A stretch of DNA of 57,892 bases from a virus: positions 1 through 57,892 of IMG/VR virus record IMGVR_UViG_3300022821_000022; one strand, written 5' to 3'. Positions 15,798-57,520 of this stretch are shown in pieces; within the stretch, counting starts at the first letter, position 1, and each line of letters opens with the position of its first letter. The position numbers and the translations under genes are program-made. Under the pieces are notes generated by a model that saw only the letters and a program-made list of their open reading frames with translations, was not told the DNA's origin and made no database searches.

Positions 15798-15823
15798 ACT
15801 TATGGGACCTATTCGTTAATGGG

Positions 15824-20810: not shown

Positions 20811-20890
20811 TATTTAATCTCCATTTCGGCGCTCATTCGCCTTTTTCGCCTTATCAGCGAGGGCTTCAATGTATGGCAGCTTATGGAAAG

Positions 20891-23882: not shown

Positions 23883-23929
23883 TCCGGGCTCGCCGCGTCG
23901 AACGTCAGAGTTTTGCGTATCTTAGTCAT
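23879..23929 (-). other. Possible 16-codon bridging ORF
   Basis: A micro-ORF (MTKIRKTLTFDAASPE) starts at the end of the methyltransferase gene and ends with a TGA overlapping the nuclease ATG. It fills the 39-nt gap exactly and may serve only to pass ribosomes from one gene to the next. Confidence 0.3.
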
Positions 23930-37101: not shown

Positions 37102-37458
37102 TTATTCCTTCTCATAGTAATCTATCAGGGCGTTTGTTTGTTTAACATATCTCAGGATGTCCTGGAAGGTAGCGCCAAGCGTCAAGTAAGAGTTCTCAGA
37201 CATACAGAGGTATGAAAATGGCTCACCGCTCTCTATGGCCACCGCAGCCGTTTTAGGTGTCATGGCAGTAAAGAATGACCGGCTCTCAATCTGAGGGGCT
37301 ATTACCGGCGCTGGGCGTGCTGGGTAGAACCGTGGGGCTGGAATCTCCACCGTCACCACCTCCACTGGTAGAAGCGGCTTCGAGAGCAATGAACACCCTC
37401 CGAGTAGCCATACCAGCAGCCCTAGCTGCAACAGCGGGCCGCTTCTCAATCTCAGCAT
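37102..37458 (-). CDS. o-spanin (Rz1-like outer-membrane lipoprotein)
   Basis: This is a 118-residue protein. A signal sequence 'LQLGLLVWLLGGC' ends in the lipobox LGGC (Cys22), followed by a proline-rich segment (VEIPAPRFYPARPAPVIAP), as in Rz1 proteins. It starts inside the i-spanin gene in another frame (173-nt overlap), the common embedded or overlapping arrangement of Rz/Rz1 pairs. With the i-spanin it would fuse inner and outer membranes during lysis. It is longer than lambda Rz1 but typical of overlapped rather than fully embedded types. Confidence 0.75.
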   Translation of the reverse strand: MLRLRSGPLLQLGLLVWLLGGCSLLSKPLLPVEVVTVEIPAPRFYPARPAPVIAPQIESRSFFTAMTPKTAAVAIESGEPFSYLCMSENSYLTLGATFQDILRYVKQTNALIDYYEKE

Positions 37459-37747
37459 CTAATTTGGTTCTCCAGGCATTTATGTCGGACAATTGGCGGT
37501 CTCGTTCCGCCTCGGCTTTGTTTTTTGCATCTTCGTGGAATCGTATCTGAATCTGATCTGTGGCAACCTTGGCAACGTAGCCCTCAATCCGTGAGTTCTG
37601 CGCCTGAATCTCACCCTTGAGAACCTGAGTGTTTCCAATGGCCGTGTCCCGCTCGACTTGGTAGCGTTCCGCCCGTTGGTACTGATACCCGCCAAAGGCT
37701 ATGGCTATGGCGAGACCAGCTCCCATTATGCCTGTGAGGCCGAACAT
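37286..37747 (-). CDS. i-spanin (Rz-like inner-membrane protein)
   Basis: This is a 153-residue protein. An N-terminal membrane segment 'IMGAGLAIAIAFGGYQYQ' (about residues 6-22) is followed by a long periplasmic coiled coil (AERYQVERDTAIGNTQVLK and QIRFHEDAKNKAEAERDRQL). This is the Rz layout. The C-terminus is Gly/Ser/Pro-rich where it overlaps the o-spanin gene. Its ATG overlaps the endolysin stop (TAATG). It acts in the last step of lysis, bridging to the o-spanin lipoprotein. Confidence 0.75.
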   Translation of the reverse strand: MFGLTGIMGAGLAIAIAFGGYQYQRAERYQVERDTAIGNTQVLKGEIQAQNSRIEGYVAKVATDQIQIRFHEDAKNKAEAERDRQLSDINAWRTKLDAEIEKRPAVAARAAGMATRRVFIALEAASTSGGGDGGDSSPTVLPSTPSAGNSPSD

Positions 37748-38217
37748 TACGCCTCAATCTCCGGTAATCCCCGAACAGTCCCGGCCTTGGATATGGTCAG
37801 GATTTCCATTTTAGGTTCTTCACCCTCGGGAGCGATTGAGCAATGAACCCATCCGGCCCTTGGGTCGTCAGGACTGTAAAACTCAAGAATTAACTGCTCG
37901 AATGTCAGGTTTTCAGAACACCATCGCGCTAGATCCTCATTGGAAACGCCCGGTACTTCAAAATCAACGGCGCGGCCTGTTATGTGCTGTGAGGCAGGTT
38001 TTGACCCGATGGCCTCATTCAAATCCGGGCAGCGGTACCAAGACGATGGCGCGAACGGTACCCCGTAGTGATTGCGGACAGGCTCTAGGATGCTCTCAGC
38101 GACCCGTGAGAGCCTATCGTGGTATTCCGTGGGCGGTTTGTTGTCTATGCCCTTACGGTCGGCTGTGTGGCTCTTATAGGCTTCTGTGAGGCTAAAGTGT
38201 TCTGAAAGTCTAGGCAT
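37747..38217 (-). CDS. Endolysin, M15-type peptidase
   Basis: This is a 156-residue zinc peptidase of the Peptidase_M15_3 (YcbK/A-type) group. Likely ligands are His78 and Asp85 in 'SQHITGRAVDF' (H-x6-D) and His125 in 'AGWVHCSIAP'; 'SSWYRCPDLNEAIG' (58-71) precedes them as in the family. It cleaves peptide cross-links of peptidoglycan, so is the cell-wall lytic enzyme of the phage. No signal peptide is seen, so release must depend on a holin, presumably one of the neighbouring membrane proteins. It overlaps both neighbours slightly, in a compact lysis operon. Confidence 0.85.
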   Translation of the reverse strand: MPRLSEHFSLTEAYKSHTADRKGIDNKPPTEYHDRLSRVAESILEPVRNHYGVPFAPSSWYRCPDLNEAIGSKPASQHITGRAVDFEVPGVSNEDLARWCSENLTFEQLILEFYSPDDPRAGWVHCSIAPEGEEPKMEILTISKAGTVRGLPEIEA

Positions 38218-39182: not shown

Positions 39183-40823
39183 CTATAGGGCGTTTTCCGT
39201 TTTACCACCTGTTAATTCTACCAGGGATTGAAGGTCGCTCTCCGCTTGACTTATAGCCTCGGTCCATGACCCCTCCGGCGACTGTCGATACAGCTTCATT
39301 GACGGATACCAGGGGGTTGAGTCTCCCTCGACGCCCCAAAACCACATACGCCCGGATCTGCTAGGGATAAAGGTCCAGACAGGCTTACCCATAGCCCCTG
39401 CCATGTGGGCTGCAACGCTGGAAACCGTGATTATCAGGTCACAGGCGCCGATAAGGGCCGCAACTCCGTCCATATCTTGTCTCAGGTCCAGGTCTGGCAG
39501 GTGATTTATGAGGGGAGCCGCCGTGTTGCGCTCCTCCTCGGTGCCGTCGTACTGGATATCAACGAAGGTTACTCCCGGCATTTGCAGGATCGGGCCGAGC
39601 TCTCCAAGCGGGATACTCTTGTAGGGACCGGCTGCGGCCGTGCTCTTGTAGCAGATCCCCACAATCGGGCCCGGTGACAAACGCTCACGGAAGGCCTGGG
39701 CCCTGTCCTCGTCCCAGGTCATATAGCCCGTATGTTTAGGAAAATCCTCGACTTTGCGCCGGAACATGGCTCCCAGGTCGCCAATATTGATATGATAATC
39801 AATCTTAATCATTTTGCCGCCCTCGGCTATTTTCAGCTTAGGGAACGACCGTCTGTACCAGGGGGTGAAGCGTTCAAAGCCAGACGTGACCTCAATTAAC
39901 GGGGTCGCCCCGGCTTCAATCACGTCCTGGATCATTGAGGCGAACATAACCCGCTCGCCAATGCCTTCCTCGCCGACCAGGAGGACCTTCCCCTTCGATC
40001 GACCGTCCCAGACAGGCGTTGTGGGGTACTTGCATATCTGATTGCCGACCGCTGGAAAGCGAGTCCGCCGGTTGTAAAGGTTCCAGCCGCGCTCATAGTC
40101 ACCCATCGTTAGGACCGCGAGCATGTAGTTCTGGGCGATATAGTCACCGCTAGGATTCAATTCTAAGGCCTTCCCGAGCAGGGTTAAGGCCCTCTCAGGT
40201 TCAAGGTCGTAGATTAGGGAGCCAAGGTTCGCCAGAGCGAGCGGTGATTCTGGTTTGAGCTCTAGGGCCTTAGTGAGGGCTTCCTCGGCTAGTTCGTATT
40301 GGCCGCTAGATCTAAGGCAGACCCCGGCCCACAAATGACCCCGAGAATCCATCTGGTCGAGATTAAGAGCCACCTGGGCCAGGGACATAGCCTCGTCGTG
40401 CTTTTTCGCCTCAAACAGAGGCGCTATGGCCTGATCCAGCCAGTCTATGAATTCCTTAATGCGGGCCTGTGTCCAGCCGCCCTGGATTACCTCAAGCTGT
40501 CCCGCTTGTCCGCCTTGGCTTCCATCCTTTGCGTTTCCTGCTTTACGAGCAAATTCCGCTCCGATAACAACACGTCCAGTTCGCTCCGCTTCTCGTCCGG
40601 TGTCATTGTCAGGCTTCTGTTGATCTTCGTCTGCTCGTCCCGGATTTTCTTTAGCTTCTTCGCTACCCGGTTCATCTTTCTCATGTCCGCCCCGACCCCC
40701 TTGTTCTCGGGTAGGAGAGATTGCCTCCTGTATTCTACCGCCCCCTCGTCGTCCTTGATCTTCTGTAGGCCGCTGTACTGCTGGCTTATCTCCTTCTTCA
40801 ACTCGAAGAACCTGTCTGTCCAT
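39183..40823 (-). CDS. TPR protein with GT9-like glycosyltransferase domain
   Basis: TPR repeats occupy residues about 125-240 (for example 'ALTKALELKPESPLALANLG'). After them comes a GT-B/GT9-like domain with 'CDLIITVSSVAAHMAGAMGKPVW' and 'STPWYPSMKLYRQ', a layout I know from alphaproteobacterial TPR glycosyltransferases linked to surface or flagellin glycans. The ATG at 40821-40823 has a strong GAGGAG 6 nt upstream but lies inside the giant gene. This makes the first ~112 residues (low-complexity, R/G/E/D-rich) overlap it in another frame by 337 nt. The first ATG after the giant stop (40388) would cut into the TPR region. Start therefore unresolved; the C-terminal part is secure. Confidence 0.75.
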   Translation of the reverse strand: MDRQVLRVEEGDKPAVQRPTEDQGRRGGGRIQEAISPTREQGGRGGHEKDEPGSEEAKENPGRADEDQQKPDNDTGREAERTGRVVIGAEFARKAGNAKDGSQGGQAGQLEVIQGGWTQARIKEFIDWLDQAIAPLFEAKKHDEAMSLAQVALNLDQMDSRGHLWAGVCLRSSGQYELAEEALTKALELKPESPLALANLGSLIYDLEPERALTLLGKALELNPSGDYIAQNYMLAVLTMGDYERGWNLYNRRTRFPAVGNQICKYPTTPVWDGRSKGKVLLVGEEGIGERVMFASMIQDVIEAGATPLIEVTSGFERFTPWYRRSFPKLKIAEGGKMIKIDYHINIGDLGAMFRRKVEDFPKHTGYMTWDEDRAQAFRERLSPGPIVGICYKSTAAAGPYKSIPLGELGPILQMPGVTFVDIQYDGTEEERNTAAPLINHLPDLDLRQDMDGVAALIGACDLIITVSSVAAHMAGAMGKPVWTFIPSRSGRMWFWGVEGDSTPWYPSMKLYRQSPEGSWTEAISQAESDLQSLVELTGGKTENAL

Positions 40824-43800
40824 TTTGTACTCCTCATTGGTGCCTGACCAACGAACGACTTGATAATATTGCGTTCATCCAGCCGCTTGCTTGCCTTTGG
40901 TGGTGCGCCACCGATTATGGTGTCCGAAATCGCGTCTGATGCAGCCAAGATGTAATCACCAAGGGTAGCTGTAAACCCCTTTACAACATGCTCTATCTTC
41001 GCAGGCGAAAGGCCGGTCGCTTTCCCAGCTTCTTTAGCTAGGTATGACGTGCGATCGTTATATCGCATTTCAGGGGGCAGGTTCTCCATAGACATCGACT
41101 CTATGGGCGTGTCCCTAAAGCTGTCCTTGTTTGCAAATAGCTCGATAGGCGTAAGAAGCCATGGGTTTGAGGCCGGGTTAATGGCAAATGTATTCATTAT
41201 AAGGTTAATCATCGCCTGTTTACTGGCGCTGCTTCTGTCGTTCCCCACGATTGATTGCAACATACGCTCTGGGATGGTCCCGAAGATTGCGCCAATCTCA
41301 AAGGGCTTGGGAATATAGCCAAACTGCGGAAGCCCTACTTTCATGGCGTTACGGCGCCCAAGTATCCGCCAATAGTTGATTACCCAGCTTGCGTCCTTAA
41401 CGTATTCAGGCAGGTCGTTGTATCCACTGGCAGCCGGTAGTTCTTCGTCCTCGTCCCAGCCCTCGTCACCCATATTGATTAAGGCCATGGCTACGGTGAA
41501 CCCGACCATCATGCCGCCCTTAATCATTAGCTTCTTCATTAGGCCCTCTTTTACGGCGGCCCTGCCACCGACGCGGGCTAACTTGTAGAGGCCTTGAATT
41601 CTCGCGTTTAAGAACGGAGAGATTGAGGTTAAAAGCACGGCCAGATCGCTACCGCCGCGCTTGTAGAAGTCCATGAGATCCCCAGCGGCAAAGGCGCCCT
41701 GCCGTATGTCGCCTTTCGTGGCGTCCTTGACCCTCTTGAAGGTCACATTACGGTTAGCAAGCTCGCCGCGCCGGCCAACATGATGCTCCCACGCCCTAAA
41801 GGTCCTCATAAAGAGCTCCAGGGGATTGAGAAGATGCACCAGCTTGTTGTCTCTCTCCATCTGGCGTAGCTGTTTGAGGATGTCTTTGGGCGCGTTCTGA
41901 TAGAACCCAACGTCGCCACCGGCGGCCATCAGTTCCCGCACTTGTGGGTCGTCCATGCTTATAGTGAGGGCCTTCATAGACGCCCACATTTCCTTATAGA
42001 AATTGTTTGAGCGTTCCTCAGATATCAACCAGGACGAGCCAGAGTCACGGCCAAAGTTACGGGCCATAAATGCGGGAAAGGCTGTGATTGCGCGGGTAAA
42101 GAAAGTCTTGGTGTATATGAGTGGCGTTAGTATGTAGCCGCTCATTTCCTGCCGATACAACTGGCCTATGCTCTTGTAAACAATCCTGTTGTGGACCTCG
42201 TAATACTCGACCTTCCCATCACGGCGGATAGATACGATATTGTTGCCGAGCTTAACCGGATCTGCGATCGCGGCCATTGCGGTTATCGAACTAACCTTCT
42301 CCAGGTCGCCATCAATCGCTAACCCCTGTTTCTTTAGGGTGCTAACGGCGGCACTGGTCGGAACTAGGGCACGGATACGGGCCATGCCGACCTTTTCAAT
42401 AATGCCGAGCTCTAGCCCTTCGTCTATTGCGAGCACCGCGGCGACGTTCTTCATAGAGGCGTCGACTAGGTGTGTGATATTCTTGGCTATGTTCTCGACG
42501 ATACTAGGGATCGGTTGCCCCATGGCCTCGACCTCATGGGTCGTTTTCCCGAGCTTCTTTCTCAGGGCATTGGCTTCTGATTTCTTCTCAAACCGGCCCA
42601 TAACGGAGCCGGTACTGTCCTCAATAACGCCCCAGAGCTTCTTGCCGCCCGTAAGGCGCTTAATGCCTGCGGACTGGCCCGTTAAGCCTCGCGTCCTCCT
42701 TGGCCCCGTAACGCCAGAGCCTTCCTCTATGTGCCGATAGAACGGCACGTAGTCCATATTCTCCCAGCCAACAGTGCCCTTCTCCGGGTCTCCGTTGCGT
42801 TGCTTGTCGTTAATGAGGCCCATATCCTCCGCCATATCGAGGACCTTCTTCATATAGACCTGGAGCTTGTCGAATACCTCGACCAGTTCTGGGTTCTCCT
42901 CCCCGAGACTCAGGAGATCTTCTACGTCTGCCTCAGTCAGATTGTGCTCCCGGCCCTCACGAATAAGTTTCTGTGCCCGTACCCGTCGAGCGTAGGCGTA
43001 GCCGTTAAAGAGGCCTTCCAGGTTTCCGCTAAAGATAGGCTCCAGGATGGTATACAGGCCGCCGGTATCGTCTTGGCGCATAACCCCGTACTCACTGTCC
43101 CAGTAGGGAGCACCCCAGCGGATCATCGCTTCCATTTGTCCGGCATTATGAGAGGCGAGAGACGCGGCGACATAAGAGGCAAGCTCTCGATCGGCAGCTT
43201 CCGGGTTTAGGGCGAGGCCCATTTGGCGTTGACCAAGAGCATTATCAGCCGTGGCCCATACCCACTCGTTCTTGGCGTCTTCCCAGAGGTTAGCGCCCGT
43301 ATCCATGATCCGCTCCATGAGCGGTCGGTGGTCCGTAACGTCGGTAATCTTGTTGATTGCCCGATTCTGGGTAGGCGTTCCCCGGCGCATGAAGGAGTCA
43401 CCGTCCATCGCTGCGTCTGCCGCCAATTCCGCGTCAGTGTTCCGCATCCCCACTTCGCCGCTGGCGATCCGGTTAAAGATACTGTCGATCGTATTGAAAC
43501 CCTTGCCGATCAGTAGGTCTCCAAGAGCATTGAAGAACTCCACAACCCGGTCCCAGGCGGTGCGTTCAAAGCCTTTCTTGTCAACATTGCCTGCCTGGAA
43601 GTCCGCGAATAGATCCGCGATTGCTTCCTCTATAAGTTTTTCCTCAGAGAGGTTTTGTCCTGTCGACCGCTCTCGAACGTCGTCCATCCGGGCCTTATTG
43701 CGAAGCACGGCCTTGGATAGGGCGGTCCATTCTGACTCACGGATTACGCCTAGTTTACGCAGGGCATGGATTACTTCGTGGTTGAGAACCCAGCCCTTGT

Positions 43801-46800
43801 CCTTCTTGGCGTCGAGGGCAACCTCGATCAATCCGCGTAGGTACTGGCCGTCCATGAATTCGACTTCGCCATCTATCACCGCGGAAATCGTTTTCTTGAG
43901 TCGCAGGGCGATATGGCCGCGTGGGTCGATCTTTTTCAGGGCAGCAACGAGGTCGTTCAATAGATCCGTGGTCGCAGCGTCCGAGAATTCCCCGGTAACA
44001 GTCACGCCACCCTTGCCAACATTGTCGGAGGGGTCGGAGTGACGGCGGGAGAATTGTGGTGTGGCCTCGTCCCCACCCTTAGACGCGACCGCTAGGAAAG
44101 CCTCGCGGTCGGCTTCGGTCTCAAACTGGAACCCAGGGATAGCGCCATTGCGTGAGAACTTGGAATAGTAACCGTTGTTCTGTTTGGCAATCTGATTAAG
44201 GCGGGTGTACTCCTCACGCTCAACACGACTATTTAGTGACGCGACGAATAAGGGGATATTCTTCTTCGCGTGGTTTGTTTCTGCCGTGGTGAAGTCAACG
44301 CCTTCGACCCCCTTAATATCGACCTTAACGGTTTCACCAGACTCAATCCCGGCAAGCCATTCGCCCATTGCCTCGTCGTTAGGCAGCACGTAGGACTTCG
44401 AGCCCGAGTCATAGAAGCCACCGTTTTTCTCGGCAAGCTGGGCGACCCTTCTAAACTCTCCAGACCCCAGGAACTTCTTGGGTTTAAGCAAAGAGTTTCC
44501 GGCTTCATCAACCGTGATTTTGTACTCATTACCGCCAGCAGTAATGGTTCCGTCCTCGTTCGGCTCAACGTCTATGTCTTTTGTAAGCGGCTCAAGGCGA
44601 GTCCCGAGGTCCGTATCTTCCATACGGTCGAACAGTTCCTCGACGGTCTCAGCATTGGTGTAATCGCGGCTTCTTTGTTGAAGCTGCTCCGCAACGTCTT
44701 CATCAGCCTGCTTTTCCAGGACAATGATCTTGGTCATTACCGATGTGCCGGCCCGTTTAAACGTAACCGAGGGCATTGCGACATCAGCGACGATATAAAC
44801 GTCTTCGACAGCCTCATAGAATGCCGCGAATTTCTTGTCCGCGGCGGGGCCTGTAGGGATTAAAGCGACAATTCGCCCACCGTTTTTAAGGTGCTTAACG
44901 GCCTTCTCAACGTGTGCCACCGCCGTTGCTCCGCCTGATCCATAAGGCGGGTTCATTATGATGGCGTCATACTTATTGATTATATTCAGGTCCTCGAACC
45001 GTGAGGAGACAACCTTCGCTCCAGGCGTTGCCATAGCGGCCCGGCTTGATAGGTCCATAGACGGCTCAACAATGGTTCTGATTGAGGTCTCTGGTAGGAA
45101 ACGGGCGATAGCACCATGACCGGCCGATGGCTCTAGGACCTTCTCACCGACCTTAATATCAGCGAACTCAACCATTTTGAACCCGACAGGCTCCGGCGTG
45201 GCGAAGTAATCAATGCCCTCGCGCTGGTCTCTGCGGCCAGACTTCTTTTGCTGGGCGTAGTAGTACGTCTTGGCTCGTTCCCATGGAGTGAAGGAGTTTG
45301 ATTCCTGGCGATCCGCTTCCTTCCCGCCCTTACCGTCTTCTTCTGAAACCGGATAGGTGTCGCTATCCAGGAAAGCCTCGATAAATGACTGCTTTAGCGC
45401 CCTAGCGTTGTCTCCAAGGGCGAGGTTTTCAGCCGTAGAGGACCTCTCTGCTATCTTGTCCGCAAACGTGTATCGCTCCCAGGTGGTGCCGGTGTTGAAG
45501 TATCTGAAAGCGGCATCTGTAACCTGCCCTTCCCGATAAACCCGGCCTTCTTCCTGGATAGCTGTAACAGGGCGGCTGGGCATCCCAAGATTTACGAGCG
45601 TGCGTCTATGGATTCCGGTTGTGTCGTGCAGGGATATTCCGGCCTCGCCAGCGGCAGACTGAATAACAATAAGGTCGTAACCGTTGCTGTCCGTATTAAA
45701 CAGGTTCATAGCGCGGGCGCGTTCTCCCTTGGAGACCCTGCCGTTGTAGAGCAACGCATTGGGAAACTCTCTCTGCATTGTCTCGATTGGAGAAAGCATA
45801 TCCGCGAACTTAAGTTCGTTAACGTATGGATTGCGCTCTAGGAACTCGTCATAGAGAGACTGTAGATTGAACTCTTGAGCGGTGTCTCCATGCCCTACAG
45901 TAACGGTCGAATCACTAGCAAAGGCGCCATCCAGCGCGAACGGGTTGAACCCTCCGCCCACATTAAAGTCATGGAACACAACGACCTTTCGGCCTGCCTC
46001 AATGCTGTCCTTGATATACTGAACCGAGTGCTGCGCCTTAATCGCCTCAAGCAGCTGTTGGCGTGAGATATAATCGAATTTCTTTTGCACCATTTCGCCG
46101 AGCACGCGGAACTTGCCGTCGTCAGCCTCGTTCAGGAATTTCATAGCCTCGTCTATGCGATTCCCCAGGCCGTCCTCAATCAGGATAAACTTGCGGTCAT
46201 AGTCGGGCTCGATATCAAGGCGGCGGCCAGAGAGTGATTTTTGATCGGTGACAAGCCATTCATGGAACCCGCGCTCCATAACGTCAAGATTTACACCGCC
46301 GTCTGGGCGGGTGAGCTTGCCTGTTCGCATCCGATAGCCAAAGTGGCGCATATAGAAAGCGTCTTGCGCGTCTGGCTGGTTGTATCCGCCCTGGTTACTG
46401 TCGTCGAAGCCCTGGTTGTACTCGAATAGATACCCGTTGGCATAATCAACCGTCTTTACATAAGCGAACGGCGTGGCGCTAAGGAATAAGGCCTTTGCGC
46501 GGGGTTGCAGCTTGTATTCCTCAATACGCTTTTGAATAGCTGCGTCGAGCTCTGCCCAGGCGGCGTCTACGGTCGCTTGTGGGGCTTTGGCTTCTTGGAG
46601 CGTTTTTAGCGCATCAACAAGGGCAGCCTCTTGTGTATAGGCCTTCGTTCTTAGTCCTTGAGGGTGGTTTGTGATTGCGCGGAGGTTCTTTAGAGGCTCC
46701 GTGACCTTGCCATCCTGGGACGACATTAGCTTATGTGACTCGTCTGCCGCTACGAAGTCCCATTCGCGGTCTGCGAGGGTTTGGTTCTGACCAAGATTTG

Positions 46801-49800
46801 CATAGGTCGTCACGACCAAGCCAGTGCCGGCGCCTGCTACACCATCCAAGCGACTGACTGGTATTCCCAGGTTTTCAAAAGCCTCAATCCAGGCGTTCAC
46901 AACACCCTGCGTCGGGGCGACAACAAGTATGTTCTCTCGGCCTTGGCGGTACTGGCGTGCGATAATCCCAGCCCCGGTATAGGTCTTTCCGGTGCCGGTG
47001 CCATTTGTAAACATCATCCCGTGGCCGTTCTCGGCTGCGAAACGGCGCTCTGCTTTCAGCACATCGTCGTGTTGTTCTGGGAATAGGAACGGGAGGGACG
47101 CGGCTATATTGTCCGCATCGCCTTCGATAATCTCAACACTGTTCGCTTTTTTCTGGGCTTCCCGCTTGGCTTTTAGGTCAAGGGGTTTTGTAGTAGCCGA
47201 CTTAGCTGGGTCTGTTGTTCCTCGGTCATTGGGCGCTCTCGGCCCGCTAATATCAGGGCCTCGTCCACTGTCTCCAGATTGGGTAGCGCCCCCATGTTCC
47301 CCGGATTGTCCCTGACGTATGCCGCTATTGCTTCCCGTTCCCAGAGAAGGGGCCCCATCATTAGAAGCGACAGCCGTACCGCGGAGTCCGTCGTCCCCGC
47401 TTTGGTTAGCTTGGTCTCCTCGTTCTCCAGCGCCTCGTCCATCTGCTGATCCTGGAGCGGAAACATCCTCTTGCCGAACTCCGTCGCTAGAGGATACTTC
47501 GCTATCTCGTTCCAGATCGGCGTTGCTACTTGGTGCATTTTGGTCTCCTGGTGTCAGTAGGTTGCCTTGTCCAGCCTCGTTTTCTTTGTCCCTCTTGGCA
47601 ACTTTCTCTTTGGTGGTCTCACCAAACATGCCGCCGGGTTCGTCCTGCTCTTTTTTGGTTTTGAGCTTGTCGCCTTTGGAATCTACGAGTTGCTGATTTG
47701 AACCTTTGGCTCCAGGAATAATGCCCTGCGGCCTGGGTCCATCAACAGTGTCTACTGTTTCTGTTTCAGCCGTAGCCGGTTTATCCCCAGCCTCAGTTTC
47801 CTGCTTGTGTGTGCCATTCTGAGCGCCGCCGCTTTCAGTTCCGGGGACGATTCCGGCTTGTTCGCCACGCGCATCCCCGTTCTCTCCTTCTGGCGCATTA
47901 TTTCCATCGGTATCGCTTTCAAACGGGATTTCATCATCTTGCTCCTGTGGGTGGGGATCATAGCCGATATCGCCCTCATGTTCCATATAGTCGCCATCGG
48001 CTTCTATGCTCTCTAAATAGTTGTCGATTAGTTGCTCAAGCTTCTCGTCCGTTAAATCCTTGGAATTTAGCCCATAATCCTCTGCAAGGGCTTCCATTTC
48101 AGCGCGTTTTTGGTCTGGATCTTCCTCGACTTCAGCCACATCCTCTGGGCGCCGACCCTCAACAAGTTTACGGGCGGCGAGGTCAATGGCCTCATATAGA
48201 GCGGGGCTTTCCGACCCTTCTGGGAGGAAGCGGTCGGCTATTAGCTGCTCAATTATGTAGACAATCTGCATCCCGCCGGTCTTCTTGAACGGCTTACCAA
48301 ACGCGGGTTGGAAATTGTTAAGGTGCCCAGCCTCCTCAATCCAGCCGTCCTTGTCATTCATCCCGCCATAGGACGCGATGGCCTGTAGGATCGTTTGTGG
48401 CTCGCGGTCGATTTTTTTACCGCGAACCCTGTTGGCTTTCTTTGGCTTGGTTTTCTCGACTGCGGGCGGGGCCTTGTCCGCTGTATCTTCGGGGCTCTCC
48501 TGCCCAAGGGTTTTAAGGGCCGCCCGAACCTCGTCGGCGGTGTCCATATTGTCTACGTTTCCGCCCGAGTCCTCGATCATATCGCGGGCACCGTTGTACC
48601 AACTCCGCAGGTAGGGCCTTAGCTGTTCAAGCGTAATCCCCATGCTTTCTGCCATTTTCTGCGCTAATGACACAAATTTACGGGTGCCAGACTCAATATG
48701 GAAAACGGCCAATTCCGTACCCATAGCAAGCATTTCCGGGTCGATCCCGCTACCTAGCTGGCTCTTGAACTTGGCGGACAGCTTCTTGCGAAGCTCCTCG
48801 GCTCGCTCGGCCGTCACTAGCTTGTTGTCGGCGCCGTAGTCCGCTTTGTCTTTAACAGGAGGCGTTTCGTTAGACTCAACGGGTTTAGTCGTGGATTCCT
48901 TAGCTGGTAACTCAGGCTTAGGAGTTTTCAGCTTTTCAGGAGGGTTATCAGCTTTGGCGGGTTCCTGCGGTTTTTTAGTTTCAGGCTTTTCGGTAGGGTT
49001 ATCAGCCGACTCCGCTGGCGAATTCTGCAATTCTCCACGGATCTGCTCCTTGGACTTGGCGTTGTCTGGCTCGTTGTAAATCTCGTCAACACGGCGCTCA
49101 ACTACCTGCTCAGGCGTTTCGGTTAGGTCTATCGTTTCCGCAGCGGGCTCTCCCATTACGGGGCCCTTCTGCGTGTTGTCCTTTTTAGTCTCAGCGTTCT
49201 TGCGGCCGAGGTAGTCCCCAGCCGTCAGGACTTCATACTTCTCCTGATTGATCTTGTCCGCTGTGGCGCGTTCGGTAATTTCAAGCACACTATTGAGAGT
49301 GCCCCTTTCAACGACGACCCAGCTATTCTCTCCATGTTTGAGTTCAGGGACGCGGTAATTATCGCCAAGAATTTCCTTAGTCCGTGCTTCCTGGTCGATC
49401 TTGTCTTGAGCAAGGGTCGCGGGGTCAGTCACGCCTGGGACAAGCGCGGCTACGTTCGCCTTCATCCATGCGTCACCCCATGCGGTTATAGCGGGCACGC
49501 CCCCGGCAATTACGTCGGCGGGTGGCTCGGCTGGTAATCCATCTTCAAAGGCCTTTTTGCCCATTGCGGCGTAATCGGTAGGCTCCCCAGCCACCACGGC
49601 TTCACCACCAGAGGAGGGCTGGGCGGCTGGGGCTGTCTGGACCGTAGGCGGCGTTCCAGACAGGTCTTGTTGGGCAGGAGCGAGGGGAGGGTCCGCTTCT
49701 GCCTCTGTCTGTGACACGACCGGCTCTCGCAAACCGAATCCGCCTTCGACCTCGACAACTTCTAATGTTCTACCTCTTAGATCTTTCCGCGATTTAGCTG

Positions 49801-51634
49801 CGACCCATGCCGCAGGCTTGGTTGGGAAAGGAGATCCGTCGTTCTTTAGCGATATCGTCGGGTCCGGGGTGACTAAGGGGGCATCGTCTATCAATGGAGA
49901 AGGATCAGCCGGGGCGATATCGGGTGTGCCCGCAGCAACGTCATTCTGAATAGCCGTGCCCTCGGCAATCAAGTCGCTATCAATAGGGCTGGCTTCATCC
50001 TCCGCGGTGATCGGTGCCTGCTTCTGGGGCCCGCCGGTTAATGCTTTTCTCTCCTTGGCGGCCGCTACGATTTCACCAGCGGCGGCCTCCATGCTGTCTA
50101 CATGGTCGGCATATTGAGGCAAGACAGCCCGCAGCATATCCTCAACAATGTAGGCCGATTTTAGCTCTCGTTCTTCTACTGTGATGCTCTGGCCCTTCTT
50201 GGTCTGGGCAAGGTCGGCCTCTACCTCTAGCCATAAGCCGAAGCGAACATCCTCCATATATTCTGGGTCTTCGATATCAATACTGGCAACGTCAATCCCG
50301 GCTTTCTTCAGTTTAGCCCGTGCGATCGCTTCCGCACCCGATCCCGCTGAGTAAGCTGCGGTCGCAACCTCAAGAGGCGCAGTTCCGAGCTCTGCGATAG
50401 CTTCGGCGTAGACCTCTACCCAGTTCTGCACCTCGCCATAAGCGACCTTTTGCCCCAACGCTTCGCCAGTGCCACCAAGGACAGCCTGGGCCCCTAGTTG
50501 CGCCGGCACGTTGACGGCTTGGCGTCTGAACGGGCTACTCAGGAGCATCGACTTCGGGACCATCAGCTTCGTAGCAATCCCGCCTGATATGGCATCGAAG
50601 ATACCGACAGCCAGGCCTTTCTTTAGGCCCTTCTCCCGAGCGTCAGCCATAATGCTTTCGTCTTGGAAGGCTTTAATAAGGGATTGGCTGTCCGTGATAT
50701 CGACCCCGGCATCAGCCATGGCCTCAAGCATAGTGAAGTTTGAGTCCACCCAGAACGAGCCCGTACCTGTGCCACCAGCAAACCCTAGCATTTGAGCGGT
50801 TGTGCCTGCTGCCTTTAGGCCCAGACCTGCGGCGCCGCCCAAGGCCAAGGATGGTACCATATAGGCCGCGCTTTCAGCGGCAAGCCCCCAAATCAGGGAC
50901 ATAAAGTGTTTAGAGCCAAGCGTTCTGAAAAACGAGCCCGAAGATCCCGCCATAGCGTGCTCGACGGCGGGGTGCGATTTAATGCCTTCCTGCTTGTCTC
51001 TGCGTTGGGCGCTACTCGCGCTTTCCTCGGCAAGTCGTTCAAGCCAGAATTCGCGGCGCTCTTTTAGAAACTCTGGGTCCTGGGCCTTAACGGGGTTTTC
51101 ATTGAGACGGGCTAGAGCTCGGGCGGTAGCTGCTTCATCCCCACTAGCTCTCGCGTCTTGATAGGCCTGGATCTTAACAAGGTTCTGCGCTGCATGGCTG
51201 GCTCTGGTGGCTGCTGCGACAGTGCCAAGCCCATACCCACTTTTAGTCAGTGGATCCGTAACATTCCGCTTAAACCGCGTTCTATCGTCACCCTCTAGGT
51301 TCGCGTCGATCGACGCAGCATCCAGATTGATCTGATCCTTAGACTCCGCAGACAACGTAGGGGCTGTGTCTTGCACCTGTGCCTGCCCGAAGGGAGAGAA
51401 GGGGCTAGGCATATCAGCCTGTGTTAACGGCGCTGGACCCTCAACCGGGGCGGCGACGGGCTCTGGGATAGGCTCGGGGACGGGTTCGGGCTCAGGCTCG
51501 GGTTCCGGCGCGTAGAATTCCGCGGCGGGCTTGCCACCGTTCAGGAAGTCTATGTAAGGGTCAGGCGCACTGTTGCCGAAGTAATCGGCGGCGGGCCTTC
51601 CGCTATTCAGGAAACTCTTAAAGTCTGGCGGCAT
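40487..51634 (-). CDS. Giant polyvalent protein: helicase, DNA methyltransferase, zincin, LPD-like C-terminus
   Basis: This is a 3,715-residue protein. It has an N-terminal FLN-G/S-x-P-A-A-x-F/Y repeat and a P/E-rich tract, then hydrophobic segments near residues 241-275 and 345-365. Long low-complexity linkers run to about 1500. Next is a superfamily-2 helicase: GTGTGKT near 1545, D-E-S-H near 1626, and a motif VI-like EEGRVYREGQV near 2028. An N6-adenine methyltransferase follows (EPSAGHGA near 2166, NPPYGSGG near 2225). A zincin motif HEVIH lies near 2618, and an LPD38-like region with a membrane-like helix near 3368 lies in the C-terminal 400 residues. This resembles packaged polyvalent or DarB-type proteins, which enter the cell with the DNA and protect it. 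It lies in the internal-protein block. Injection is inferred. Confidence 0.85.
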   Translation of the reverse strand: MPPDFKSFLNSGRPAADYFGNSAPDPYIDFLNGGKPAAEFYAPEPEPEPEPVPEPIPEPVAAPVEGPAPLTQADMPSPFSPFGQAQVQDTAPTLSAESKDQINLDAASIDANLEGDDRTRFKRNVTDPLTKSGYGLGTVAAATRASHAAQNLVKIQAYQDARASGDEAATARALARLNENPVKAQDPEFLKERREFWLERLAEESASSAQRRDKQEGIKSHPAVEHAMAGSSGSFFRTLGSKHFMSLIWGLAAESAAYMVPSLALGGAAGLGLKAAGTTAQMLGFAGGTGTGSFWVDSNFTMLEAMADAGVDITDSQSLIKAFQDESIMADAREKGLKKGLAVGIFDAISGGIATKLMVPKSMLLSSPFRRQAVNVPAQLGAQAVLGGTGEALGQKVAYGEVQNWVEVYAEAIAELGTAPLEVATAAYSAGSGAEAIARAKLKKAGIDVASIDIEDPEYMEDVRFGLWLEVEADLAQTKKGQSITVEERELKSAYIVEDMLRAVLPQYADHVDSMEAAAGEIVAAAKERKALTGGPQKQAPITAEDEASPIDSDLIAEGTAIQNDVAAGTPDIAPADPSPLIDDAPLVTPDPTISLKNDGSPFPTKPAAWVAAKSRKDLRGRTLEVVEVEGGFGLREPVVSQTEAEADPPLAPAQQDLSGTPPTVQTAPAAQPSSGGEAVVAGEPTDYAAMGKKAFEDGLPAEPPADVIAGGVPAITAWGDAWMKANVAALVPGVTDPATLAQDKIDQEARTKEILGDNYRVPELKHGENSWVVVERGTLNSVLEITERATADKINQEKYEVLTAGDYLGRKNAETKKDNTQKGPVMGEPAAETIDLTETPEQVVERRVDEIYNEPDNAKSKEQIRGELQNSPAESADNPTEKPETKKPQEPAKADNPPEKLKTPKPELPAKESTTKPVESNETPPVKDKADYGADNKLVTAERAEELRKKLSAKFKSQLGSGIDPEMLAMGTELAVFHIESGTRKFVSLAQKMAESMGITLEQLRPYLRSWYNGARDMIEDSGGNVDNMDTADEVRAALKTLGQESPEDTADKAPPAVEKTKPKKANRVRGKKIDREPQTILQAIASYGGMNDKDGWIEEAGHLNNFQPAFGKPFKKTGGMQIVYIIEQLIADRFLPEGSESPALYEAIDLAARKLVEGRRPEDVAEVEEDPDQKRAEMEALAEDYGLNSKDLTDEKLEQLIDNYLESIEADGDYMEHEGDIGYDPHPQEQDDEIPFESDTDGNNAPEGENGDARGEQAGIVPGTESGGAQNGTHKQETEAGDKPATAETETVDTVDGPRPQGIIPGAKGSNQQLVDSKGDKLKTKKEQDEPGGMFGETTKEKVAKRDKENEAGQGNLLTPGDQNAPSSNADLERDSEVSSSDGVRQEDVSAPGSADGRGAGERGDQANQSGDDGLRGTAVASNDGAPSLGTGSNSGIRQGQSGEHGGATQSGDSGRGPDISGPRAPNDRGTTDPAKSATTKPLDLKAKREAQKKANSVEIIEGDADNIAASLPFLFPEQHDDVLKAERRFAAENGHGMMFTNGTGTGKTYTGAGIIARQYRQGRENILVVAPTQGVVNAWIEAFENLGIPVSRLDGVAGAGTGLVVTTYANLGQNQTLADREWDFVAADESHKLMSSQDGKVTEPLKNLRAITNHPQGLRTKAYTQEAALVDALKTLQEAKAPQATVDAAWAELDAAIQKRIEEYKLQPRAKALFLSATPFAYVKTVDYANGYLFEYNQGFDDSNQGGYNQPDAQDAFYMRHFGYRMRTGKLTRPDGGVNLDVMERGFHEWLVTDQKSLSGRRLDIEPDYDRKFILIEDGLGNRIDEAMKFLNEADDGKFRVLGEMVQKKFDYISRQQLLEAIKAQHSVQYIKDSIEAGRKVVVFHDFNVGGGFNPFALDGAFASDSTVTVGHGDTAQEFNLQSLYDEFLERNPYVNELKFADMLSPIETMQREFPNALLYNGRVSKGERARAMNLFNTDSNGYDLIVIQSAAGEAGISLHDTTGIHRRTLVNLGMPSRPVTAIQEEGRVYREGQVTDAAFRYFNTGTTWERYTFADKIAERSSTAENLALGDNARALKQSFIEAFLDSDTYPVSEEDGKGGKEADRQESNSFTPWERAKTYYYAQQKKSGRRDQREGIDYFATPEPVGFKMVEFADIKVGEKVLEPSAGHGAIARFLPETSIRTIVEPSMDLSSRAAMATPGAKVVSSRFEDLNIINKYDAIIMNPPYGSGGATAVAHVEKAVKHLKNGGRIVALIPTGPAADKKFAAFYEAVEDVYIVADVAMPSVTFKRAGTSVMTKIIVLEKQADEDVAEQLQQRSRDYTNAETVEELFDRMEDTDLGTRLEPLTKDIDVEPNEDGTITAGGNEYKITVDEAGNSLLKPKKFLGSGEFRRVAQLAEKNGGFYDSGSKSYVLPNDEAMGEWLAGIESGETVKVDIKGVEGVDFTTAETNHAKKNIPLFVASLNSRVEREEYTRLNQIAKQNNGYYSKFSRNGAIPGFQFETEADREAFLAVASKGGDEATPQFSRRHSDPSDNVGKGGVTVTGEFSDAATTDLLNDLVAALKKIDPRGHIALRLKKTISAVIDGEVEFMDGQYLRGLIEVALDAKKDKGWVLNHEVIHALRKLGVIRESEWTALSKAVLRNKARMDDVRERSTGQNLSEEKLIEEAIADLFADFQAGNVDKKGFERTAWDRVVEFFNALGDLLIGKGFNTIDSIFNRIASGEVGMRNTDAELAADAAMDGDSFMRRGTPTQNRAINKITDVTDHRPLMERIMDTGANLWEDAKNEWVWATADNALGQRQMGLALNPEAADRELASYVAASLASHNAGQMEAMIRWGAPYWDSEYGVMRQDDTGGLYTILEPIFSGNLEGLFNGYAYARRVRAQKLIREGREHNLTEADVEDLLSLGEENPELVEVFDKLQVYMKKVLDMAEDMGLINDKQRNGDPEKGTVGWENMDYVPFYRHIEEGSGVTGPRRTRGLTGQSAGIKRLTGGKKLWGVIEDSTGSVMGRFEKKSEANALRKKLGKTTHEVEAMGQPIPSIVENIAKNITHLVDASMKNVAAVLAIDEGLELGIIEKVGMARIRALVPTSAAVSTLKKQGLAIDGDLEKVSSITAMAAIADPVKLGNNIVSIRRDGKVEYYEVHNRIVYKSIGQLYRQEMSGYILTPLIYTKTFFTRAITAFPAFMARNFGRDSGSSWLISEERSNNFYKEMWASMKALTISMDDPQVRELMAAGGDVGFYQNAPKDILKQLRQMERDNKLVHLLNPLELFMRTFRAWEHHVGRRGELANRNVTFKRVKDATKGDIRQGAFAAGDLMDFYKRGGSDLAVLLTSISPFLNARIQGLYKLARVGGRAAVKEGLMKKLMIKGGMMVGFTVAMALINMGDEGWDEDEELPAASGYNDLPEYVKDASWVINYWRILGRRNAMKVGLPQFGYIPKPFEIGAIFGTIPERMLQSIVGNDRSSASKQAMINLIMNTFAINPASNPWLLTPIELFANKDSFRDTPIESMSMENLPPEMRYNDRTSYLAKEAGKATGLSPAKIEHVVKGFTATLGDYILAASDAISDTIIGGAPPKASKRLDERNIIKSFVGQAPMRSTKWTDRFFELKKEISQQYSGLQKIKDDEGAVEYRRQSLLPENKGVGADMRKMNRVAKKLKKIRDEQTKINRSLTMTPDEKRSELDVLLSERNLLVKQETQRMEAKADKRDSLR

Positions 51635-51636
51635 TT

Positions 51637-52533
51637 CTACTGATTACCAGTAGCGAGATTGAGCCGCCTTAGGGCTTCCTCTTGAGTGATTGTACCAGCC
51701 TCATATTCCTGTCTAATTCTGTCCATGGCCTGCTGCTGTTCCGGTGTAGGCGGTGCTGCGCTTGGTGGTGGCGCTGGGGTCCCACCTAATCCATTGGCGG
51801 GCGCGTCCATGATTGTCGGCTGTGCAGACTGGTTGCCCAATCCGATGGCGGCGTTAGGATTCGTAGCCGTGACCGCGCCAATGCCCTGCCCATGATCCGG
51901 CGCTTCGTCCGGAACATCTAGCCCGTGCTGCTCTGCGTACACTTTTGCCACATCGGGCATAGCGACCATAAGACCCTTGTAGACAAGGAGTAGCTTATCC
52001 GGGATTTCTTCTGGCCCTATCGAAACGCCATCTTCTGTGCCGAGCCCGGTTATATAGAGCTGCTCGAAGTCCTTTACGGCCGCCGCAACCTTGGCATCGT
52101 AGTTAACGCCCGCTGTTCTTAGGGCGACCTGTAGTTGCGCGGCGCGGTTTGCGGTCTGGTCCGCCCGGTACTCCTCCATCGAGTCCTGCTGCCTGTCTCT
52201 GAATGCGTCGTTTGATTCGTCCTGAAGGCGATTGCGGTCGGTTCTGGCCTTAAGGTCCCTCTCAGCCAAAGCATTCGTTTCTCCTTGCGAGAGCAGGGTG
52301 GCCTTCGCCTTGATTTCCGCGGCTGTGGCGTTTGTGCCAGCAAGAGCCGCTGCCGCATCCGTGGAGGCCTTCGTTTGGCGGGTGTCGGAGTCCAGCGATC
52401 GCTTATCAGCGCGAGCCTCGCTCTCGTCAGATATCATCCTCTGCCAATTCATCTTGGCCTGCTCGATAACGCCCTGGCCGTAGCCTTGAGCGGCGCCGGC
52501 TGCCATCAATCCTAATGCGCGTCCGATTCCCAT
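51637..52533 (-). CDS. Internal virion protein candidate
   Basis: This is a 298-residue protein. A short Gly/Ala N-terminus (MGIGRALGLMAAGAAQGYGQ) is followed by about 120 residues of coiled coil (ARADKRSLDSDTRQTKAS, then ERDLKARTDRNRLQDESNDAF). The C-terminal half is Pro/Gly-rich, ending in a helix 'QQAMDRIRQEYEAGTITQEE'. It abuts the giant gene and the other internal proteins, all transcribed together. The layout matches ejection or core proteins of podoviruses. No enzymatic motif. Confidence 0.65.
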   Translation of the reverse strand: MGIGRALGLMAAGAAQGYGQGVIEQAKMNWQRMISDESEARADKRSLDSDTRQTKASTDAAAALAGTNATAAEIKAKATLLSQGETNALAERDLKARTDRNRLQDESNDAFRDRQQDSMEEYRADQTANRAAQLQVALRTAGVNYDAKVAAAVKDFEQLYITGLGTEDGVSIGPEEIPDKLLLVYKGLMVAMPDVAKVYAEQHGLDVPDEAPDHGQGIGAVTATNPNAAIGLGNQSAQPTIMDAPANGLGGTPAPPPSAAPPTPEQQQAMDRIRQEYEAGTITQEEALRRLNLATGNQ

Positions 52534-53196
52534 TTATGCCCCCTGCGGCGGTGGTGGAGGCGGCGGGGCCTGTTGACCCTGCTGCGGCGCTTCCTGCCCT
52601 GCCATCTTATCCATACCCGGCAACGCCCCTTCTAGCACGGCTGGCGGCGCATCGTTTAGGGCCTGTAGGTCGGCTTTCGCGGCTTCCGGGTCCATTGTCT
52701 CTTTGTTCATCTGCTTGTAGTGATCGACAGCCTTTAGGAACCCAGTTTCGAGCTCCTCATCGGTGAATGTGTGGATACCCTTACTCTCGGCAAGCTCGGC
52801 AAGGTGCTCTGTGATTTCCTGTCCGCCATGAAGCATGGTTTCTCCGGTTATTTTCATCCCGGATTTGCTCGCTGATTTCTCAACGGCATCGACAACGTAG
52901 ACAGCGGCGGTCGCAAGGGCCTCTACAGGATCACTCCCGGCACTAAGCATAGAGACAACGCTTTCCCCGGCTTTCTCATTCCCTTCGGCGGCAATCAGGT
53001 TAAGGGCGTTCCCTACGAATTGGTCATACTGATCCTGTTCCTCTGGCGACACATTGGCCTCGGGATCACCCTCCTCGTCCAAAGGAAGGTTAGACGGGTA
53101 CTGGTCCGTCGGCGCATTCGCGTTGACAGCCCCGCGCTGTGGCGGCGGGGCTGGCTGTTGCCCGAGTCCGGGCGCGGGTGGTTGAGGAGGTAGCAT
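52534..53196 (-). CDS. Internal virion protein candidate, Pro-rich ends
   Basis: This is a 220-residue protein. The first 50 residues are Pro/Gln/Gly-rich (QPPAPGLGQQPAPPPQ). A helical, acidic middle contains 'QYDQFVGNALNLIAAEGNEKAGESVVSML', 'AVYVVDAVEKSASKSG' and 'HLAELAESKGIHTF'. The C-terminus is again Pro/Gln-rich (EAPQQGQQAPPPPPP). It lies one nucleotide from the previous gene. I recognise such proteins next to core-protein and giant genes in N4-capsid phages. Exact role unknown. Confidence 0.65.
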   Translation of the reverse strand: MLPPQPPAPGLGQQPAPPPQRGAVNANAPTDQYPSNLPLDEEGDPEANVSPEEQDQYDQFVGNALNLIAAEGNEKAGESVVSMLSAGSDPVEALATAAVYVVDAVEKSASKSGMKITGETMLHGGQEITEHLAELAESKGIHTFTDEELETGFLKAVDHYKQMNKETMDPEAAKADLQALNDAPPAVLEGALPGMDKMAGQEAPQQGQQAPPPPPPPQGA

Positions 53197-53205
53197 TGCA
53201 GTCTC

Positions 53206-54075
53206 CTAAGCGAGTCTAGTCTGTTTTGGGATCTTAATAACTTGCCCGGTATCTGGGTCCGTAATGTAGGTCCCTTCTTCATTGTTTCCGTTGCTAAGGC
53301 GCTCAGTCGGGGTTGCCATAGCAACGCTGTTCGATTGCTCTCGGGCCTGTTGTTGGGCCACATCGCTTGTCGTGCCGACACCGGCAGGGGTGCGGTTCCC
53401 CATAAGCCCAGTCGCGCCCGCGAAATTATAATTATCCCCGCGAGCCTCAAGTTGCTTGGTTCCATCGTCGCCAGAGAGAGCGTTGGCTGCCCCACCAGCG
53501 AAGCCAGAAATCAACATGGCCTGCGGAATCGTAAGGCCGCCTGCTGTAGCCCCGCCGCCTGCTGTTGTTATTGGCACCCCAGTCGCGGCGAAACCTTCTC
53601 CTAAACTCACAGCGTTTATGGGTGCCGTGTTAGCAACACCAGAGGCGAGACCGGGGCCAGCCAAGGAGGCGGGGGCGGTAGTGCCAAGGCCAGGAGCAGC
53701 AGCGGCGAGTCCTGGGAGTTCTATGCCTGCAAGGACAGCACCGCCACCAACCGCGGCGCCAGCCAATGCGCCATAGCCCATATATTTCGTAATTTTCTTG
53801 CCGGTCGCAGCGGCGTAAACGCCACCAGCGGCAGCGCCATATCCTGCATACGTGATCGCGCCGATGAGGAAGGGACTGTTTATCCCAACGGTGGCAAGGG
53901 CGCCGGTTACACCGCTCGCCAAACCGCCCCCCAAAACGGTGCCAGCCAGTGCCGGGATCGCGGCTCCTACGGTTAAGACGACGGCGGCGACCGCTAGAAC
54001 GATCGGGACGACGACCTTGGCGACCTTAATGACTTTCTTAAAGACCTTGCCAACGGCCTTGATTACGCCACTCAT
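53206..54075 (-). CDS. Membrane-active internal virion protein candidate
   Basis: This is a 289-residue protein. A basic N-terminal helix (MSGVIKAVGKVFKKVIKVAK) is followed by a long hydrophobic Ala/Gly/Val stretch (IVLAVAAVVLTVGAAIPALAG). There is another hydrophobic region around 75-125 ('ITYAGYGAAAGGVYAAATG' and similar), then a Gly/Ala-rich part and a polar C-terminus. Amphipathic plus hydrophobic architecture is common in ejection proteins that line or make the DNA channel. The C-terminal 'PTERLSNGNNEEGTYITDPDTGQVIKI' is typical of this group of virion proteins. Role by analogy. Confidence 0.7.
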   Translation of the reverse strand: MSGVIKAVGKVFKKVIKVAKVVVPIVLAVAAVVLTVGAAIPALAGTVLGGGLASGVTGALATVGINSPFLIGAITYAGYGAAAGGVYAAATGKKITKYMGYGALAGAAVGGGAVLAGIELPGLAAAAPGLGTTAPASLAGPGLASGVANTAPINAVSLGEGFAATGVPITTAGGGATAGGLTIPQAMLISGFAGGAANALSGDDGTKQLEARGDNYNFAGATGLMGNRTPAGVGTTSDVAQQQAREQSNSVAMATPTERLSNGNNEEGTYITDPDTGQVIKIPKQTRLA

Positions 54076-54569
54076 GCGGCTTCCTTTCTTTCTCTCACAA
54101 TCTCACGCTCAAAGATTAACCCGCTACGGCGGAAACCATGGCGCTCGTAGACCTTCGCAATACGTTCCGGGTCCTCAAGCATATCGGTTGCCCCTGGGCG
54201 GATAACGGCAATGCGCGGTGTGCGCTCTGCCCACTCATAAAAGCTATTCAGGAGCTTGAGGTATGCCTTCGCTGGCGCATCCGGCGTCACGTAGAATTGA
54301 GCATCGACCGCCTCGAACCTCTCTCCAACAAGGCCAATCCTTTGCTGCATCCCAATATGGTAGCCCTGGATCTGCCCGTCCTGCTCGACCACGTTTACCC
54401 AGGTCCCGGCAGGAGAACGGTTCTCATTATTGAAAACAATCTCACGCAGCAAGCCCTTGGCGTAGGTGTGGTCCACCCCGCATAGGTCCCGATAACGCGA
54501 CTTCGCCCCGGCTTCGACCATAAGATCAGCCATCCGGCGAGTGTCGGTCATGGTGGCGAGGCGGATCAT
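54072..54569 (-). CDS. GNAT-type acetyltransferase
   Basis: This is a 165-residue protein with the GNAT fold pattern. An N-terminal 'IRLATMTDTRRMADLMVEAG' (strand and helix) is followed by 'GTWVNVVEQDGQIQGYHIGMQQR' (strands 2-4) and 'YVTPDAPAKAYLKLLNSFYEWAER' (helix). The last part 'RIAKVYERHGFRRSGLIFEREI' is the family-typical Y-x-x-x-G-F strand. It probably acetylates a protein or small molecule using acetyl-CoA. Such genes are often found inside the internal-protein block of podoviruses, so it may modify a virion or host protein. It overlaps both neighbours by 4 nt. Confidence 0.75.
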   Translation of the reverse strand: MIRLATMTDTRRMADLMVEAGAKSRYRDLCGVDHTYAKGLLREIVFNNENRSPAGTWVNVVEQDGQIQGYHIGMQQRIGLVGERFEAVDAQFYVTPDAPAKAYLKLLNSFYEWAERTPRIAVIRPGATDMLEDPERIAKVYERHGFRRSGLIFEREIVRERKEAA

Positions 54570-57179: not shown

Positions 57180-57520
57180 TAGACTGTCTCCCGATCGACC
57201 CAGCCATCCAGGACAATCATGCTCGATACGGCCGCGTATGCCGTAAGGGCAAGAGTGCTTTGGAGTATCGTTCTATCAAGGAGCGTGACGTGCCCTAGCG
57301 AGGATGGAACGGGAATCTCAGTAAGTTTTGCCCCGTCCTTTTCGAGGGTTAGCAATCGCGCCTCGCTGTCCAGGTTCATCGCCCGCACCGTCACATAGTC
57401 CGTCGTCCCTGACGTTGAGCCAGAGGTATGAACCGTGGTGTTGAGGCTGGATATCCCGGCAACCATGATAGGCCGCCCGTTAAGGCCAGCAGAGAAGGGA
57501 ATTCGTACAATCGTGCTCAT
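57179..57520 (-). CDS. Small tail-associated protein (113 residues)
   Basis: This beta-rich protein starts MSTIVRIPFSAGLNGRPIMV and continues with 'SSLNTTVHTSGSTSGTTDYVTV', 'LDSEARLLTLEKDGAKLTEIPVPSSLG' and 'TILQSTLALTAYAAVSSMIVLDGWVDRE'. The last part resembles short proteins encoded between fibre genes in N4-capsid phages. Its ATG overlaps the stop of the upstream fibre gene and its stop abuts the adhesin-like gene. A partial second copy lies at 1-138. Function unknown, probably virion-associated. Confidence 0.65.
   Translation of the reverse strand: MSTIVRIPFSAGLNGRPIMVAGISSLNTTVHTSGSTSGTTDYVTVRAMNLDSEARLLTLEKDGAKLTEIPVPSSLGHVTLLDRTILQSTLALTAYAAVSSMIVLDGWVDRETV

Follow-up and report, generated by a model that had tools for sequence, protein, structure and literature searches.

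Phage polyvalent proteins, described by Iyer et al. in 2017, are large proteins that combine unrelated enzyme domains with LPD regions. The usual enzyme dyad in that survey is a methyltransferase followed by a helicase, Strawberry-notch-like helicases being found in few instances, and processing of polyvalent proteins in general by zincin MPTases was suggested (PMC5512222). DarB of phage P1 is a head protein that inhibits EcoK and EcoB; its targeting signal lies in the N-terminal 30 residues (PMC9024508). The DarB-like giant protein of the Bcep22-like phage JC1 was detected by mass spectrometry of CsCl-purified virions (PMC9144972). The virion RNA polymerase (vRNAP) of phage N4, which is ejected, is composed of a membrane-active N-terminal domain, a low-complexity linker, the enzyme, an HExxH domain, and a helical domain of about 1,100 aa (PMC12633501).

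In this study, we analyzed a giant gene in a 57,892-bp IMG/VR virus record, the whole of which is hereafter called the window. Its product belongs to a known and widespread class of giant phage proteins and is not a new system, because DarB-like giants exist in phages Parlo, ZX1, Skulduggery, and 45A6 and a homologue is found in JC1 virions. To this widespread but little-tested class of giants, which presumably protect the phage DNA that they are injected with, the window contributes an uncultivated phage of probably alphaproteobacterial origin.

The giant gene and its neighborhood

The giant gene is located at 40487-51634 on the minus strand, with an ATG at 51634 and a stop at 40487. Its 3,715 codons (3,715 aa) contained no internal stop and occupied 19.3% of the window, in agreement with the unbroken gene taking 19% that had been noted in a preliminary description of this DNA. 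The start lies 2 nt past the stop of the upstream gene at 51637-52533, and the GC contents at the three codon positions (0.615/0.425/0.605) showed a protein-like pattern. The gene was confirmed to be real and complete. The flanking genes are as follows.

51637..54569, minus strand: upstream genes of 298, 220, and 289 aa (function not assigned) and a GNAT acetyltransferase gene of 165 aa
37102..39085, minus strand: downstream lysis-type genes, with an endolysin gene at 37747-38217 and a putative spanin-like gene at 37102-37747

The giant gene lies in one minus-strand late block together with tail-type genes, and the lysis genes follow just downstream. The endolysin gene matched phrog_894 (5e-35), and the gene at 37102-37747 appeared spanin-like from its sequence. 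The gene order from GNAT to the giant matched that in Parlo, ZX1, and Skulduggery, in which the giant also occupies the slot before the lysis genes; the order of GNAT, small genes, giant, and lysis cassette is common to all four phages. The short tail of the window phage is inferred from its gene content and its podoviral relatives. The absence of a virion RNA polymerase, as claimed in the preliminary description, was borne out: the next largest open reading frames (ORFs) encode 770, 703, and 546 aa, none of those tested matched a polymerase, and Pfam and PHROG scans found no T7-like RNA polymerase domain in the giant.

Several other features of the window were observed. The gene directly after the giant (39183 to approximately 40490) encodes TPR repeats and a weak glycosyltransferase-9 domain, and is missing from the corresponding place in Parlo, ZX1, and Skulduggery. 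It is possibly linked to a sugar/glycan gene cluster on the minus strand (13522-22237) adjoining the terminase genes, which contains genes for a glycosyltransferase, a GDP-mannose-dehydratase-like epimerase, several SAM methyltransferases, a DegT aminotransferase, an FAD oxidoreductase, and WbqC; this cluster may act on glycans of the virion or of the host surface. Apart from the giant, the window encodes a second adenine-type DNA methyltransferase at 23922-24566, which has an NPPF motif (phrog_799, 1.4e-28). An exact 111-bp repeat was found near the window ends (1-111 and 57383-57493). Past these 111 bp the copies diverge (510-bp overlap, 257 mismatches) and code for related pieces of a tail protein, indicating either gene duplication or strain variation at an assembly break.

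Domain organization of the giant protein

Each of four motifs occurred once in the giant, in the order from helicase to zincin: Walker A GTGTGKT (aa 1545), DESH (aa 1631), NPPYG (aa 2228), and HEVIH (aa 2619). Pfam detected ResIII (4e-10), Helicase_C (9e-6), and LPD38 (PF18857, 1.7e-35), whereas MTS (2.5e-4) and Helicase_C_4 (Strawberry notch C-terminal) were both just below the cutoffs. The protein matched PHROG 10691 with 1,313 bits and the DarB-like phrog_10089 with 171 bits (3e-50). The features, all on the minus strand, are given below from the N-terminus, with their basis in brackets.

51578..51631, minus strand: N-terminal motif copy 1, aa 2-19, PPDFKSFLNSGRPAADYF (self-similarity)
51512..51565, minus strand: N-terminal motif copy 2, aa 24-41, PDPYIDFLNGGKPAAEFY (self-similarity)
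50315..50917, minus strand: Gly/Ala-rich, moderately hydrophobic region, about aa 240-440, candidate membrane-active region (KD-21 peaks)
48491..48844, minus strand: conserved domain of about 118 aa, aa 931-1048 (relatives)
47165..48037, minus strand: low-complexity linker, about aa 1200-1490 (composition)
45365..47122, minus strand: SF2 helicase/translocase, Strawberry-notch-like, aa 1505-2090 (Pfam, alignment, PDB profile)
44675..45250, minus strand: N6-adenine-type DNA methyltransferase, aa 2129-2320, NPPY at 2228 (PHROG, profile match)
44045..44557, minus strand: small domain in two copies between methyltransferase and zincin, about aa 2360-2530 (relatives; doubling by eye)
43415..44017, minus strand: putative zincin metallopeptidase, about aa 2540-2740 (alignment)
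43766..43780, minus strand: HEVIH motif, aa 2619-2623 (motif, alignment)
40490..43327, minus strand: C-terminal module of about 946 aa, mostly alpha-helical (AF2, BFVD)
40865..41422, minus strand: LPD38, aa 3405-3590 (Pfam PF18857)

The SF2 helicase, NPPY, and HExxH features named in the preliminary description were all found, whereas of its LPD-like regions only LPD38 was recognized as an LPD. The hydrophobic segments that it mentioned were present but of only moderate strength: the 19-residue KD value never exceeded 1.6, and the 21-residue KD profile peaked at 1.2-1.5 around aa 245, 340, 3064, and 3369. The Gly/Ala-rich region was matched in the giants of Pelagimonas (L115, E 5e-12) and Halocynthiibacter (L152, 1e-7). 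No phmmer homologue was found for the N-terminal 700 aa; matches to a few relatives were confined to aa 200-520. The domain at aa 931-1048 showed 63% identity to Parlo and was present in 33 relatives, and the small doubled domain after the methyltransferase was seen in 42.

The helicase motifs were invariant in alignment A1, and a PDB profile match to the SNF2/Rad54 helicase was obtained (6e-9). The methyltransferase region matched PHROG DNA methyltransferase families and the TaqI methylase profile (2e-4), and NPP[YF]G was invariant in the alignments. LPD38 was found in 20 of 20 aligned sequences. The AF2 model of the C-terminal module, built from a shallow alignment of 19-20 sequences, had a pLDDT of 70.5 and a pTM of 0.69. 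It matched polyvalent proteins in BFVD (best E 7e-43; 57 at E<=0.001), and no significant fold match was found in the PDB. As modeled, this fold is common to many phage polyvalent proteins.

Relatives and conservation

No near DNA relative of the window was found in the phage collection by megablast, and tblastn with the giant matched 215 phage records. The closest relatives, those of 45A6, Parlo, ZX1, and Skulduggery, showed 44-48% identity over about 900 aa. A single-protein search of viral contigs found no relatives, whereas an alignment-based search succeeded. In viral contigs, 249 relatives were confirmed, of which the best 80 were kept; bacterial genome contigs yielded another 76 confirmed relatives at 69 loci. 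In L096 and L097, contigs binned as Patescibacteria and as Acidobacteria, relatives of identical length (6,959 aa) and match pattern were observed, and the two are probably one phage contig binned twice.

Conservation was counted over 94 distinct giants with closed ORFs of at least 2,500 aa. As to whether catalytic residues are lost in the alignment, a point raised in the preliminary description, the motifs were intact: Walker A was present in 93 of the 94 giants and the NPP motif in all 94. An HExxH or HExxxH motif followed the methyltransferase in 86 of 94, compared with 6% expected from shuffled tails. In the core tree, the window giant fell within a fully supported clade of 23. Because all named members of this clade are alphaproteobacterial (Rhodobacterales, Rhodospirillales, and a Ruegeria phage), the tree points to an alphaproteobacterial host without proving it.

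Stand-alone helicase-methyltransferases of 840-1,280 aa were found in Acinetobacter prophage-like loci and in Flavobacteriia, with neither a zincin nor a convincing LPD38 tail beside them. Seven Acinetobacter prophage-like loci (L072, L103, L104, L144, L082, L113, and L132) carried such genes of 1,240-1,280 aa, without a zincin, in a conserved neighborhood.

The doubled N-terminal motif

The self-similarity of the N-terminal motif in the window giant scored 52, compared with 29+/-5 in shuffled sequences, and this score was reached by none of 60 shuffles and none of 40 windows taken elsewhere. A significant doubling, defined as no shuffle scoring as high, was found in 22 of 95 non-redundant giants, compared with 23 of 368 neighboring proteins (Fisher p 6e-6), where 60 shuffles were used for giants and 30 for neighbors. 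The count is blurred by the choice of start codon, for which the first Met was taken as a guess. The motif sequences differed between lineages. Because the supported branches of the core tree force at least 14 changes, with the labeled set picked by hand, the doubling appears to have arisen or been lost repeatedly. In locus L066, the ORF at 5110-8607, which directly precedes a shorter giant, also had its N-terminal motif doubled (DWESGEMSAPHGGG/DWEAGEISTPPEGG), which would fit a single giant split into two genes.

The doubled motif is possibly a loading tag, or a binding or cleavage site. By analogy with cargo-loading peptides and with the N-terminal 30-residue signal of P1 DarB, we tentatively propose that giants recurrently carry a lineage-specific N-terminal peptide in at least two copies as a tag that directs loading to the head, portal, or core, and that the doubling is re-invented. 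If true, the doubled tag would amount to a rule of protein cargo loading in phages, and the idea is testable. A general capsid tag common to several cargo proteins was not supported, the motif being found in no other ORF of the same locus in tests of 23 loci, nor in the other ORFs of the window.

The HExxH domain

An HExxH motif with a downstream Glu as zinc ligand is the pattern expected of zincins. H2619, E2620, H2623, and E2670 were invariant in 19 sequences (alignment A2). The AF2 model of this domain, also from a shallow alignment of 19-20 sequences, was helical, had low confidence before the HExxH helix, and did not show the three-stranded zincin sheet; it had no significant match in the PDB, and Pfam had no match to the HExxH domain of the window giant. 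From the conserved residues, the domain is a probable metallopeptidase. Two closed ORFs in the same subclade as the window giant (L083 and L012) lacked any HExxH. These two, and the stand-alone helicase-methyltransferases without a zincin, weaken the release of domains by the protease that the preliminary description suggested: self-cleavage may release domains but would not be required for the function of the helicase-methyltransferase dyad.

Proposed function

We consider it fairly likely that the giant is an ejection protein of the Bcep22/Parlo DarB-like kind, which is packaged, ejected, and protects the incoming DNA in cis by methylation. The domains, the intact catalytic motifs, their conservation, and the gene position are shown by the sequences, whereas packaging, ejection before the DNA, cis-methylation, and the role of each end are what we infer; a protein acting on the entering DNA is proposed because of the shared gene order, the JC1 virions, P1 DarB, and the N4 layout. 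The giant would be made late alongside the virion proteins and packaged in the head, from which it would be expelled through the short tail ahead of or together with the DNA. The N-terminal region, possibly through the doubled tag and with the Gly/Ala-rich hydrophobic part, would serve in loading and attachment to an envelope channel, and the helical LPD38 tail would be a shared chassis for delivery. Once in the cytoplasm, the SF2 motor of Strawberry-notch-like type would move along the entering DNA duplex, and the methyltransferase joined to it would mark adenines, shielding the DNA in cis from restriction ahead of any phage gene expression. The zincin may be accessory and trim either the giant or some protein of the host or the phage.

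The ejection-protein reading is favored by the retention of the helicase and methyltransferase motifs in practically every relative, by a virion-module slot that is also the place of the giant in Parlo, ZX1, and Skulduggery, and by the C-terminal fold common to many phage polyvalent proteins. That slot, together with the JC1 virion homologue, also makes packaging and ejection likely, as far as the payload idea of the preliminary description goes. On the other hand, the second methyltransferase at 23922-24566 means that protection may not depend on the giant alone, the resemblance to P1 DarB is weak with a reversed order, and the likeness to the N4 layout comes without sequence homology in the tail. 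An enzyme that is not packaged but made in the infected cell, modifying progeny DNA or remodeling the host late, would fit some relatives, which occur as enzymes on their own in a bacterial or prophage setting; such an enzyme is nevertheless very unlikely in view of the giant size, the LPD38 tail, the virion-gene position, and the JC1 relative detected in virions.

The enzymatic part of an ejected giant could also be weighted differently. The other domains might anchor the SF2 translocase at the inner membrane, where it would pull the DNA in, with methylation being secondary; the layout parallel with N4 vRNAP, whose transcription was proposed to pull DNA in, the persistence of helicase motifs even where other domains change, and the lack of a detected virion RNA polymerase in the window agree with such a motor. 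However, the NPP motif is conserved to the same degree as the helicase, and the helicase-methyltransferase also occurs alone, without delivery domains, which makes an entry motor unlikely. It is likewise doubtful that the main activity is that of the zincin and that the giant is a polyprotein cutting itself into separate enzymes after entry, a reading in line with the domain release suggested in the preliminary description. The position of HExxH past the methyltransferase far more often than by chance, the invariant HExxH...E, and the processing proposed by Iyer et al. speak for it, whereas 8 of the 94 closed giants, including the near relatives L083 and L012, have no HExxH, the model is helical with no PDB match for a zincin fold, stand-alone helicase-methyltransferases do without the domain, and recombinant full-length N4 vRNAP, with its HExxH domain, shows no degradation (PMC12633501).

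Comparison with known systems

P1 DarB, a virion protein, resembles the window giant in combining an adenine methyltransferase with an SF2/SNF2 helicase in one protein. However, it has 2,255 aa with the methyltransferase before the helicase, whereas the helicase comes first in the window giant; the two share 21% identity over 195 aa, and P1 DarB has an SNF2 helicase and no LPD38 match, in contrast to the Sno-like helicase and LPD38 of the window giant. Orthology was ruled out by the reversed domain order and the weak similarity. The term "DarB-type" in the preliminary description thus holds in the loose sense of the Bcep22/Parlo podophages and not in the strict sense of P1 DarB, whose order is reversed and whose helicase branch differs. 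"DarB homologue" for Parlo-type proteins denotes a likeness of activities, not orthology; annotations often lump both, and giants with a helicase followed by a methyltransferase are here set apart from true P1 DarB.

N4 vRNAP is similar to the window giant in length and layout, although its enzyme is an RNA polymerase and not a helicase-methyltransferase, and no sequence homology beyond the HExxH motif was detected between it and the C-terminal tail or zincin of the window giant. The comparison links the layout of DarB-like giants to the recently solved N4 polymerase.

The giants of Vibrio phages 1.232.O and D274 (3,162-3,292 aa) are homologous to the window giant from the helicase through the C-terminus, with 36-40% identity in the core and 27-28% over about 880 aa of the tail. 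Their zincin motif is HExxxH, their doubled N-terminal motif differs from that of the window giant, and no SLT motif was found in them. As far as their published descriptions go, and likened by description rather than sequence, JC1 gp69 and Bcep22 gp75 are DarB-like giants of about 4,500 aa in the same virion slot; the Bcep22 giant is described with a lytic transglycosylase domain, unlike the window giant.

The window giant conforms to the polyvalent proteins of Iyer et al., an assignment made in the preliminary description and upheld by the helicase, methyltransferase, HExxH, and LPD38 in one protein and by the virion/packaging-type gene neighborhood. It also conforms to the Bcep22/Parlo DarB-like giants, which have a homologous helicase-methyltransferase core in a protein of more than 3,000 aa. 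The giants of Parlo (3,764 aa), ZX1, Skulduggery, and Ruegeria phage 45A6 are of similar size and have the zincin past the methyltransferase. Those of Parlo, ZX1, and Skulduggery have a lytic transglycosylase at their start, identified from Pfam SLT for Parlo and by sequence reading for the other two, whereas SLT was absent from the window giant in the Pfam scan; this N-terminal domain is variable across the DarB-like family and was not taken as defining. The Parlo giant also has GNAT-like and LPD39 matches, neither of which is present in the window giant. Compared with the Parlo type, the window giant has an unusual N-terminus without a lytic transglycosylase, and carries the doubled N-terminal motif and LPD38 in place of the transglycosylase, the GNAT-like domain, and LPD39.
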